64,000 bases of DNA. Source: Natrarchaeobaculum aegyptiacum (GTDB taxonomy: Archaea > Halobacteriota > Halobacteria > Halobacteriales > Natrialbaceae). Shown here piece after piece: positions 22,584-45,471 of the stretch. Below the pieces are notes generated by a model. It had not been told where the DNA came from, did not search any database, and worked only from the letters and a program-made list of their open reading frames with translations. Positions within the stretch are counted from its first letter, which is position 1; each line of letters opens with the position of its first letter. The translations under genes and the position numbers were made by a program. The stretch lies in contig NZ_CP019893.1 in NCBI RefSeq assembly GCF_002156705.1, positions 434,001 through 498,000 of the forward strand, given 5' to 3'.

Positions 22584-25079
22584 ATGACAAGCGAACCAAC
22601 GATTCGCGAAAAGGGACGCGCCGTGTTCCTTGCCGCGCTGATGGTCCTCTCCGTGGTCGCCATGTCCGCAGCGTTTGCGGGCGGTGCGGCCGCCTCCGCT
22701 GAGGAGACAGAGCTCGACGATGTCGACGCTCTCCACAACAGTGTGCACTGGGAAGGACAGATTCTGAACGTATCGAACGACGATTGGGGCGAAGACCTGC
22801 AGCTTCGAGCCGTCGATGATTACGATGGCGGCGAAATTGAAAGCAGCTCCTTCGTCGAAGAACTTACCGCAGACGGTAACTTCGTCGAGATCGACACCGA
22901 TGGTCTCGAGGGATATTACACCGTCCAGAACGACTCTGGCTACCTCGAGTCCGGCGACGACGACCTCCGCTTCGAGGTCACCTCCCAGTCCCTCTCCGCC
23001 GAGTGGGACGAGGACACCGTGACCGAGGCTGACGACGACGTCGAACTCGAGCTCGACAGCAACCGCGCGAGCTACAACGTGACGATCGCGGCAGATGGTC
23101 TCGACTACGACCAGCTCAAGGCGCTGTTCGTCCACGACGGTGCCGACGGCATCGAGGCTATCGAAGAGGACGGTGAAGACTACCTCCCACTCGACAAGTT
23201 CGACGCTGACGACTTCGACGACCTCGAGAGCGACGACTACCTCACGCTCGACCTGAGCGACTGGGGAACGGACGAACTCATCGGTAACTTCAGCAACCTC
23301 GACGACACCGAGGGCATCGACGCTGGTGAGTACGACTTCGAAGTCTACGTGACCGACAGCTCCGCTGAAGCCACCGCGCCGATCGAATTCCGTGAGGAAG
23401 ACGTCGACGGTGCCTTCAGCCAGGGCGTCTACACGCAGTCCGCCGGTGACCTCGTCGAGATCACCCTCGAGCTCGAGGACACCGACGAAGCGTTCATCCA
23501 GATCGGTGACGAAGACGCTGGCTTCGTCGACGTCGTCCACGTCGAAGACGACGACGAAGACGGCGAAGTGAGCTTCTGGGTCAACACCCGAACGCTCGGT
23601 GTCACCAGTGAAGAGATCGATAACGTCTACGACGCGGGTGACGACGAGATTAACAGTCTCCTCCACGGAGACCTCGAGAACAGCTCCCAAGGAGCTGAAT
23701 CCGACTACGTCAACTTCTGGGACGAAGAAGTCGGTAACGACGACGACCTGCTCAACTTCGACCAGTACGTCGATGAGCTTGGTCTCGGTGACGACGCCGA
23801 GGACCAGCTGACCCGACCCCTCCAGCCGACCGACTACAGCCTGATCGCTGAGGCCGACGGCAACTTCATCGTCGACGATGGCGAATCCGAGGCCGACAAC
23901 GAAATCGACCAGGCGACGCTCGACCTGATCGCACCCGAACTCGGCGAAATCACGACTCACGTCGCACCTGAAGACGCCGCCGACGAGGACGACGAACTCG
24001 CCGACCTCCTCGACATCGTCACCGAGCGATCCGACGTCGCCGAGGACGACCGCCTGATCATCGAGGCCGAGGCCACCGGTATCTACGGTGCCCTCGCGGC
24101 CCACTCCGACAACGGCTTCGACATCGTCGAGGATGGCGTCGAAGCTGAAGCCCTTTACAACGTCATCGGCGACGAGGGTGAGGGCATCACCTTCGAGGTC
24201 GAAGCTGACGACGCGATCGGCAATCAGGACCCGACCGCGCTCCAGCTTGACGGCGTTGACGACGAAGACGTCTTCATCCTCGTGGACAACGAGGAAGGTG
24301 CCTTCTACGTTGTCGTCGACACCTCCTCGAGTGACGCCTTCGACGGCAGCCTTGAAGACGGCCAGACCTTCGACGTGACGCTCGAGTACGAGACCGACGA
24401 CGACGAACGCTACGCGTTCGACGACAACCCTGACAACGCCTTCGACGGCGGTGCTGACGGCCAGACCGGCGACGCCGCCTACCCGTACTTCAGCGCTGAC
24501 TCGACCCAGTCCGTGAGCACCGAGTTCACGATCGTCGAGCCCGAGGCCGCCTTCGACAACCTCGACGCTGACGACAACGTCCAGCTCGAGGCCAGCGACG
24601 ACGCCGTCGTGACGGGTGAGACGAACGTCGCACCCGGCTCGGAGATCGACATCCGCATCAGCAACGCTGGTGACACGCCGAGCTTCCTGACGACGGTCGA
24701 CGCTGAAATCGATTCCGACGGCACCTTCGAGTCCGAGGAGATCGACTTCGGCGACCGTAGCGTCGACGACGAGGCCGAACTCACCTTCCGCGTGGGTGGC
24801 AGCTCGATCGACGACGCTGACGGAATCTTCGTCGAGGCCATTGAAGACGTCGACGACGCTGACGACGAGGCCGACGACGAAGTTGACGACGACGCCGCTG
24901 ATGACGAGGCTGACGACGACGCCACTGACGACGAACCCGTCGAAACTGACGACGAACCCGTCGAGACCGACGACGAGCCCGTCGACACTGACGACGACGG
25001 CGTCCCCGGATTCGGTCTCGCCATCGCTATCGTCGCGCTCCTCGCCGCCGCGATGCTGGCACTCCGCCGCCAGAACTAA
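22584..25079 (+). CDS. csg: S-layer-type surface glycoprotein with PGF-CTERM anchor
   Basis: A secreted cell-surface protein of 831 residues. It starts with the haloarchaeal surface-glycoprotein signal peptide (REKGRAVFLAALMVLSVVAM, about 9-28), cleaved near AAASA (residue ~38). Sequons for N-glycosylation are visible at N62, N116, N165 and N235. The beta-rich ectodomain (about 40-760) is extremely acidic. It ends in a threonine-bearing acidic spacer with a 7-residue repeat (EPVETDD three times), then PGFGLAIAIVALLAAAMLAL and RR, the PGF-CTERM signal processed by archaeosortase A with lipid attachment. This is the plan of S-layer glycoproteins; whether it is the main S-layer subunit or a paralogue cannot be told, so the symbol is tentative. 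Confidence 0.85.
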   Translation: MTSEPTIREKGRAVFLAALMVLSVVAMSAAFAGGAAASAEETELDDVDALHNSVHWEGQILNVSNDDWGEDLQLRAVDDYDGGEIESSSFVEELTADGNFVEIDTDGLEGYYTVQNDSGYLESGDDDLRFEVTSQSLSAEWDEDTVTEADDDVELELDSNRASYNVTIAADGLDYDQLKALFVHDGADGIEAIEEDGEDYLPLDKFDADDFDDLESDDYLTLDLSDWGTDELIGNFSNLDDTEGIDAGEYDFEVYVTDSSAEATAPIEFREEDVDGAFSQGVYTQSAGDLVEITLELEDTDEAFIQIGDEDAGFVDVVHVEDDDEDGEVSFWVNTRTLGVTSEEIDNVYDAGDDEINSLLHGDLENSSQGAESDYVNFWDEEVGNDDDLLNFDQYVDELGLGDDAEDQLTRPLQPTDYSLIAEADGNFIVDDGESEADNEIDQATLDLIAPELGEITTHVAPEDAADEDDELADLLDIVTERSDVAEDDRLIIEAEATGIYGALAAHSDNGFDIVEDGVEAEALYNVIGDEGEGITFEVEADDAIGNQDPTALQLDGVDDEDVFILVDNEEGAFYVVVDTSSSDAFDGSLEDGQTFDVTLEYETDDDERYAFDDNPDNAFDGGADGQTGDAAYPYFSADSTQSVSTEFTIVEPEAAFDNLDADDNVQLEASDDAVVTGETNVAPGSEIDIRISNAGDTPSFLTTVDAEIDSDGTFESEEIDFGDRSVDDEAELTFRVGGSSIDDADGIFVEAIEDVDDADDEADDEVDDDAADDEADDDATDDEPVETDDEPVETDDEPVDTDDDGVPGFGLAIAIVALLAAAMLALRRQN

Positions 25080-41480: not shown

Positions 41481-41836
41481 CGATGGAAGCGACTCGATAC
41501 GAGGACGGTTCGATCACCTACCCCGGACACCCGCGGGGGCCCGGCGGCGCGGAACCAGTAGAGACGATCGATCTGAGCGAGTACACTGCAGAAGTCATCA
41601 CGTGGACGACCTCGATGGCGACGCCGCCGGGTGTCCGCGAGCCGAACACGCTCGCGATCGTCGAGTTCGACGTCGATGGCGAACCGGTGCGTGCGATCGG
41701 TCAGGCGACCACGGGCGAGATCCAAACCGGCGACGAAGTCCGACCCGTCCACGTCGACGAACTGCGCGAACCCGGTGCCGGCATTCGAGAACCGGAGAGT
41801 CAGGACTGGGACGGATATCGGTTCGAGCCGGTCTGA
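41477..41836 (+). CDS. DUF35 OB-fold protein without zinc ribbon
   Basis: A 119-residue partner of the thiolase-like protein (4-nt ATGA overlap). DUF35 proteins usually have an N-terminal zinc ribbon (two CxxC) and a C-terminal OB fold. Here the OB fold is recognisable (YTAEVITWTTSMATPPGVREPNTLAIVEFDVDGEPVRAIGQ, about 36-76), but the protein contains no cysteine at all, so there is no zinc ribbon. In the known archaeal thiolase/HMG-CoA synthase/DUF35 complex, the DUF35 protein shapes the CoA-binding site; a similar scaffolding role is inferred. Its last codons lie in the first unit of a 102-bp tandem repeat. Confidence 0.78.
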   Translation: MTMEATRYEDGSITYPGHPRGPGGAEPVETIDLSEYTAEVITWTTSMATPPGVREPNTLAIVEFDVDGEPVRAIGQATTGEIQTGDEVRPVHVDELREPGAGIREPESQDWDGYRFEPV

Positions 41837-42146
41837 GCTGGAATCTGGCGCGAACAGCCCGTGAGCGGCAGGTCCCAACGCGAAGCCGGTTCGGATCAGG
41901 GAGGTGCAACGCTCCGACCGTGGTTCGAGCCGGTCTGAGCTGGAATCTGGCGCGAACAGCCCGTGAGCGGCAGGTCCCAACGCGAAGCCGGTTCGGATCA
42001 GGGAGGTGCAACGCTCCGACCGTGGTTCGAGCCGGTCTGAGCCGGAATCTGGCGCGAACAGCCCGTGAGCGGCAGGTCCCAACGCGAAGCCGGTTCGGAT
42101 CAGGGAGGTGCAACGCTCCGACCGTGGTTCGAGCCGGTCTGAGCCG
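41821..42146. repeat. 102-bp tandem repeat, three full copies plus a partial
   Basis: Three units (41821-41922, 41923-42024, 42025-42126) are followed by 20 bp of a fourth (42127-42146). Units 1 and 2 are identical; unit 3 differs at unit position 18 (t to c), and the partial fourth matches unit 3. Each unit begins with gttcgagccggtctga, which is the 3' end of the DUF35 gene with its stop codon, so the array grew by duplicating the gene's tail plus 86 bp of flank. The unit length is 34 codons and leaves one frame per strand open through the array. The array lies between convergent genes. Confidence 0.9.
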
Positions 42147-45014: not shown

Positions 45015-45397
45015 TGAACGCAGTCTTTCTTCGCCTCCACATAAATCCTCTGGCTACAACGACGGGTTGTTGCACACCTTCGTCCGTCAGCCCGCACTTG
45101 TAGACATCAGCGCATTATTTTGTGATGCTTTTAATAATAAAATTACTACTGTGGCCGTAATTGAACGGTCTCAAGCGTTGATAGGGACCGGACAAGACTC
45201 CCCTGTGAACCGCCTCGGGGTCAAGTGGTTCGAAAGGCCTTCGGCCTTTCGTCATCACGGAAGATCGAAGATCTTCCGAACGACCCCAAGGCACTCGGCC
45301 TGCTCCGCCTGTAGAGCCAGAACCAGAGTGTGACTAACTGGCGCGGCGAGACCATCTCTCTAACTCGTTGCCTGATGGGTTCCGTTTACCGAGAAGA
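45015..45397. other. Intergenic region with structured RNA-like element
   Basis: 383 bp without a convincing gene. An AT-rich stretch at 45117-45145 lies left of the hairpins. The structured block at 45211-45290 is described separately. The 3' end of tRNA-Thr abuts the right side. Confidence 0.6.
45211..45290. repeat. Two perfect hairpins inside an outer stem
   Basis: Hairpin 1 is cgaaaggcc-ttc-ggcctttcg (45231-45251, 9-bp stem). Hairpin 2 is cggaagatc-gaa-gatcttccg (45258-45278, 9-bp stem). An outer stem can pair cctcggggtc (45213-45222) with gaccccaagg (45282-45291) except for one mismatch. The whole looks like a three-way junction on either strand. It may be an IS-end remnant, a MITE or a non-coding RNA. 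Confidence 0.65.
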
Positions 45398-45471
45398 AGC
45401 CAGGGCGGGGATTTGAACCCCGGAAGTCTCGATTACAAGTCGAGTGCATGAACCGCCCATGCTCCCCTGGC
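45398..45471 (-). tRNA. tRNA-Thr (anticodon UGU)
   Basis: The minus-strand sequence folds as a full cloverleaf. The acceptor stem is GCCAGGG/CCCTGGC, the D stem GCAT/ATGC, the anticodon stem CTCGA/TCGAG with loop CTTGTAA (anticodon TGT), the T stem CGGGG/CCCCG with loop TTCAAAT, and the discriminator is U. No CCA is encoded and no intron is present. The U discriminator fits archaeal tRNA-Thr. Confidence 0.95.

Follow-up and report, generated by a model that had tools for sequence, protein, structure and literature searches.

A stretch of 64,000 nucleotides from Natrarchaeobaculum aegyptiacum (contig NZ_CP019893.1; hereafter the window) contains, near a tRNA-Thr gene, a block of nested hairpins, and we asked whether this block is a structured non-coding RNA, the end of an insertion sequence, a MITE or something else. 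A preliminary description had placed at 45211-45290 two perfect 9-bp triloop stems six bases apart, enclosed by a stem of 9-10 bp. Both inner hairpins were confirmed (45231-45251 and 45258-45278; perfect 9-bp stems with 3-nt loops, spaced 6 nt apart), and the enclosing stem comprised 11 pairs, one of them G-T, between 45212-45222 and 45282-45292. The suspicion that chance could hardly produce this symmetry was borne out, as the RNA fold of 45190-45310 reached -53.4 kcal/mol (z -4.45) and the DNA fold of the 111-nt unit -30 kcal/mol (z -5.24), with 0 of 200 shuffles as good in either case. The block is therefore real, but its limits had been drawn too narrowly. A search of the same genome with 45100-45330 as query returned 16 matches, the longest repeats of which stopped at query positions 106 and 216, that is, at 45205 and 45315; the full unit thus covers 111 bp, from 45315 to 45205 on the minus strand. 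With a 301-bp query, matches were found in 52 of 61 genomes, and the search for dispersed copies that had been recommended accordingly succeeded both in this genome and in other haloarchaea.

We conclude that the whole block is probably a nested composite of mobile DNA, in which a 58-bp two-hairpin piece sits in the palindrome tip of a tiny IS200/IS605 remnant. For the inner piece, we use the name double-hairpin element (DHE), coined in this analysis. Read on the minus strand, TCTAC is followed by the left end, one palindrome arm, the insert, the other arm and GGTTCAC, with the following features:

45311-45315, minus strand: target TCTAC, adjoining the IS605-type unit at its left end
45293-45310, minus strand: left end of the terminal-only IS200/IS605 derivative, the same in a full element (L064) and in plain units (L065, L066, L067)
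45284-45292, minus strand: first arm of the host palindrome, GCCTTGGGG, from the sequence and own-genome comparison
45226-45283, minus strand: DHE of 58 bp inside the palindrome tip, matched by covariance model R1 at G000:C1:479225-479283 and missing from plain units
45258-45278, minus strand: DHE hairpin 1, 9-bp stem, loop TTC, from the sequence and folds
45252-45257, minus strand: DHE linker TGATGA, which in relatives can be occupied by a second double hairpin
45231-45251, minus strand: DHE hairpin 2, 9-bp stem, loop GAA, from the sequence and folds
45212-45225, minus strand: remainder of the host palindrome, namely the tip CTT and the second arm GACCCCGAGGC, from the sequence and own-genome comparison
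45205-45211, minus strand: right end GGTTCAC, common to L002, L003, L064, L065 and L066, where the similarity of other copies ends

Relatives elsewhere in this genome served to identify the outer layer. The same ends are found in a full element (L064, G000:C1:2464089-2466215), which carries tnpA and a 425-aa tnpB frame and whose palindromes read GCCTCGGGGCTAGACCCCGAGG on the left and GCCTCGGGGCTTGACCCCGAGGC on the right. Plain 53-bp units, consisting of the left end, a single palindrome and the right end, occur at L065, L066 and L067, and the window unit corresponds to this 53-bp form with an insert at the palindrome tip. Insert-bearing terminal-only units occupy four separate places in the genome (the window, L002, L003 and L004); the outer flanks of the window unit and L002 are 14% and 34% identical. 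T preceded CTAC in 34 of 35 left ends, which were collected by a pattern that already demanded CTAC, and the bases farther out were variable. At L003, an empty site in two relatives was contiguous on the right flank from TAC, while its left side was unalignable; the DNA search for two-sided empty sites therefore yielded one flank for L003 and nothing clear for L002.

These properties resemble those of the PATEs of Haloquadratum walsbyi, whose terminal-only members are described in PMC3119063 as a fused form of 52 bp, compared with 53 bp here. As in the PATEs outlined there, the window unit has IS605-related near-terminal palindromes without terminal inverted repeats or target duplication: an IS605-type transposon has the same ends and palindrome, the unit lacks a transposase gene (L064, L065-L067), and the flanks around the copies show no repeat. 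Unlike the H. walsbyi elements (PMC3119063), the window copy holds a DHE in its palindrome and belongs to another genus, and the two are likened by description. The suggestion of an IS end or a MITE was thus close, insofar as the block combines a terminal-only derivative of IS200/IS605 with another short element lodged in its palindrome; the traits of a classical MITE, however, are absent, since the PATE layer has neither terminal inverted repeats nor a target-site duplication and in the DHE short inverted ends are present without any duplication.

The window DHE consists of TCGTT, a hairpin, TGATGA, a second hairpin and AACCA. DHEs have inverted ends of the form TCGTTCG...CGAACSA, begin with TCGT in 110 of 125 copies and are usually 54-62 bp long; the most symmetric, such as L049, read TCGTTCGA...GTGATCAC...TCGAACGA. 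Model R1 was built from 21 sequences out of 26 rows (some near-duplicates omitted) plus L008, and the inputs L007, L037, L051 and L068 were trimmed to the consensus start. At E <= 0.001, it identified 14 distinct sites in the own genome (28 rows, both strands matching at each site) and, at E 0.01, matches in 39 of the 41 genomes searched. From 187 match sites over partly overlapping loci, we retained 125 rows that were full-length, had 60 bases on each side and were distinct in sequence. A total of 44 plasmid records also matched; the 30 among those listed were all haloarchaeal, and 22 of them had no annotated feature under the match. A copy in Haloferax mediterranei lies between two genes, and no match was found in phage records. 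A pattern scan of named genomes was uninformative, returning, among the matches listed, mostly chance matches in bacteria. DHEs can themselves be nested: a second double hairpin lies within the DHE linker at L338, L341, L345, L348, L352, L353 and L354, and L346 carries a third. Such four-hairpin DHEs measure ~110 bp; the nested copy at L062 is a model match and is not among the 125 rows in its nested form.

We then related the copies to their surroundings. IS605-type palindromes harbour 54 DHEs (21 left, 15 right, 15 terminal-only and 3 unclear, sorted by text patterns that may have misplaced single rows), some of the right-palindrome copies lying directly downstream of tnpB, and further DHEs are found within reading frames or in repeats of other kinds. 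One tnpA site, six codons ahead of the HVH motif, holds a 54-bp DHE in four genomes; compared with the intact tnpA of L069, which represents the empty allele, the DHE has been inserted exactly and without shifting the frame. The stems of these four copies are the same and the loops differ; the linker holds TGA in two genomes and GGA in the other two (G018 and G021), for whose tnpA genes no stop was listed. The shared site suggests a single insertion inherited by descent. The open tnpA frames of L147 (G021) and L167 (G018) include an 18-codon DHE, because GGA replaces TGA in the linker. The tnpB of L167 likewise contains a DHE; the bases on either side of it are neighbours in L064, again an empty allele. 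At L049/L130 (G000:C1:2852125-2852185), a tnpB frame runs in phase through a DHE close to the C-terminus. No target duplication was seen at DHE insertions.

A target preference emerged from the 73 copies outside the main palindrome class, in which the base before the DHE was G in 66, position -4 was G in 52 and position -5 was a pyrimidine in 69. The motif YGNNG/C (the slash marking the insertion point) was present in 25 of 43 context clusters, some of which are distantly related to one another and hence not wholly independent, versus 13 of 1000 random positions. General targeting of hairpin tips was dropped, as 8 of 43 context clusters versus 95 of 1000 random positions conformed to it, and was retained for IS605-type palindromes alone. 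One setting recurred in several genomes, with CTTTTGC-GCTG, the DHE, another hairpin and then TCGGCAAAA (L105, L112, L119, L126, L158, L198, L204 and L206), as though the DHE were cargo of yet another element, one whose ends are TTTTGC/GCAAAA. Three own-genome DHEs, L006, L007 and L068 (G000:C1:1434266, 1560222 and 1419949), are embedded in a different related repeat marked by CACGAAAGCCCC, and TTCATTCCCACCC is close by in two of the three.

Whether the hairpins act as RNA or as DNA was assessed from the substitutions in their stems. Compensatory changes, proposed at the outset as the mark of an RNA, do exist: 55 cells of the 21-sequence alignment are altered on both sides of a pair. RNA-selected structures would be expected to tolerate G.U more than A.C on their own strand. 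Across the 125 copies, 2081 of 2160 stem cells were Watson-Crick, 19 were G.T and 16 were A.C; covariation was thus present without the accompanying G-U tolerance, and the equal rarity of both mismatches is taken here to point to DNA hairpins or arm-to-arm correction rather than RNA. Within the window, the tRNA alone reached the Rfam threshold, and the permissive list resembled chance, so no known family could be assigned to the block. The idea of a structured non-coding RNA was thus not supported, the covariation notwithstanding. An omega-RNA or other non-coding RNA had been our initial guess, which was dropped on account of the DHEs in left palindromes and tnpA and the G.T/A.C parity. In its fullest form, that explanation holds that the hairpins extend the omega-RNA of TnpB and that solo copies are stand-alone guide RNAs. 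It draws on the 15 of 54 palindrome copies in right palindromes, some just past tnpB, where an omega-RNA would include them, on the expressed haloarchaeal omega-RNAs with a right-end hairpin described in PMC12558985, on the co-varying stems and on the position of the unit downstream of tRNA-Thr on the same strand. We nevertheless regard it as improbable, given that modules of this same kind also populate left palindromes, tnpA and unrelated repeats, that G.T and A.C are about equally rare and that Rfam gave no match. Upstream of the unit on the plus strand, the A+T-rich sequence TTTTAATAATAAAA at 45127-45141 looks by eye like an archaeal promoter element; such an element would point away from the reading favoured here.

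Two groups of known elements invite comparison with the DHE. SMR-A of H. walsbyi is likewise short, with inverted ends and no target duplication, and it too enters near-terminal palindromes, both in PATEs and in IS605-type elements, its mobilisation being called enigmatic (PMC3119063). Insertion into such palindromes without target duplication was also found for the DHE. The sizes differ, however: SMR-A is given as ~110 bp in the same paper, whereas the window DHE has 58 bp and most copies 54-62 bp, and it is the nested four-hairpin DHEs of ~110 bp that equal the size stated there for SMR-A. The H. walsbyi plasmid PL47 contained no significant DHE (best E 0.24), and DHE and SMR-A were otherwise compared by description. 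The second group comprises bacterial REPINs and REP dimers, which, according to PMC3116915 and PMC3733652, share with the DHE two hairpins in inverted order, a tetranucleotide at the outer feet and a dispersed distribution; some REP dimers are reported there inside palindromes and some in frame within genes. The tag, however, is TCGT in the DHE versus GTAG or CGTC in REPINs, and the DHE has triloops and no apparent RAYT partner: 9 of 39 DHE-positive genomes are without a detectable Y1 gene. Of these transposases, only the IS200-type subclass is reported from Archaea in PMC6006769. Mitochondrial DNA double-hairpin elements resemble the DHE in name and general shape and belong to organelle DNA. 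Searches of an open-access library yielded no account of a DHE-type double hairpin from haloarchaea.

How might such a composite have arisen? On this reading, the 53-bp host unit consists of the left and right ends of an IS200/IS605 element fused at their near-identical palindromes. If the host follows the mechanism established for IS200/IS605, its hairpin would be recognised in single-stranded DNA by a trans-acting Y1 (HUH) TnpA, which would place the unit 3' of TCTAC without target duplication. The palindrome tip has received a REPIN-like DHE with inverted ends. The DHE itself would move in a folded, single-stranded form, with an enzyme supplied in trans cleaving and rejoining its ends; that enzyme is most likely, though not provably, of the Y1 type. 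As the DHE merely widens the loop, the host hairpin stays intact and the host can still move carrying it; an RNA function is unnecessary. In G016, four units have DHEs that are 98-100% identical within outer flanks of 14-36% identity, and the left flanks of nine left-palindrome copies in G045 are unrelated (14-40%). The hosts thus seem to have travelled with the DHE in place, unless the DHEs of different units were made alike by gene conversion, which could produce identical copies. The parent-like tnpA of the own genome is broken by a DHE with TGA, and the window unit may therefore now be immobile. Further results count against this scheme. Y1_Tnp genes were found in 30 of 41 genomes; none was detected in 9 of the 39 DHE-positive genomes, among them G024, G040, G041 and G052 with 13 to 27 DHE matches each (both strands counted). 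Hairpin-tip insertion is not general, and at strain level no insertion of a DHE on its own came to light. A longer, gene-bearing autonomous DHE was sought upstream of right junctions in 20 regions chosen among the matches listed (~260 bases each), and none was seen; the corresponding left-junction pattern was too promiscuous for use.

These data bear on two further explanations of the inner layer. According to one, the DHE is not independently mobile but an old part of some IS605 palindromes, spread by host transposition, recombination and gene conversion, with other contexts being rare captures. The concentration of 53 of 125 copies in one context cluster fits this account, as do the mere three pairs of copies in different contexts whose DHEs are at most 2 mismatches apart, and alike left and right palindromes could exchange inserts. 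We consider it unlikely, though not negligible, in view of the 43 context clusters with a target motif common to 25, the exact insertions into tnpA and tnpB, where the flanks lack palindrome homology, and the nested copies. According to the other, the inner repeat exists as a defence device that disables IS605-type elements by inserting into their palindromes, as has been proposed for SMR-A (PMC3119063). DHEs are indeed frequent in IS605-type palindromes, and one with an in-frame TGA interrupts the parent-like tnpA; yet DHE-bearing units seem to have multiplied (the four of G016 and the nine left-palindrome copies with unrelated left flanks of G045), and G018 and G021 have GGA for TGA in the tnpA linker and an open frame, so that we hold inactivation to be very improbable. 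Beyond the nested composite itself, we tentatively suggest, as a possibility somewhat short of probable, that DHEs are the archaeal counterpart of REPINs, spreading free of RAYTs into YGNNG/C and often palindrome centres and nesting like Russian dolls, with arms that change together by template-switching correction rather than by selection on an RNA.

The DHE copies collected here supply a consensus for the target, alleles with and without the insert, and units that have seemingly spread with it inside. The apparent spread of DHE-bearing units speaks against simple inactivation as proposed in 2011 (PMC3119063), and copies in cultured species, such as Haloferax mediterranei, make the question of mobilisation testable.

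Finally, we considered the tRNA neighbour, which had been taken as a hallmark of mobile DNA. The tRNA-Thr gene lies at 45398-45471 on the minus strand, 82 bp from the unit. In 16 other own-genome loci that were scanned, each a DHE or PATE copy and its flanks, no tRNA was present; the adjacency looks incidental, and the tRNA as an insertion target was rejected. No such unit separates tRNA-Thr from the HalOD1 gene in G002, G003, G004 and G008 (L209, L210, L214 and L215; read by eye in a spacer too diverged for a base-exact empty site), so the window insertion looks lineage-specific. Elsewhere in the window, a tandem array at 41820-42144 (102-bp unit, 3.2 copies, 99% matches) lies amid long overlapping frames, and 24851-24997 contains degenerate, CGACGA-rich units of 12 to 27 bp, perhaps encoding an acidic protein repeat.
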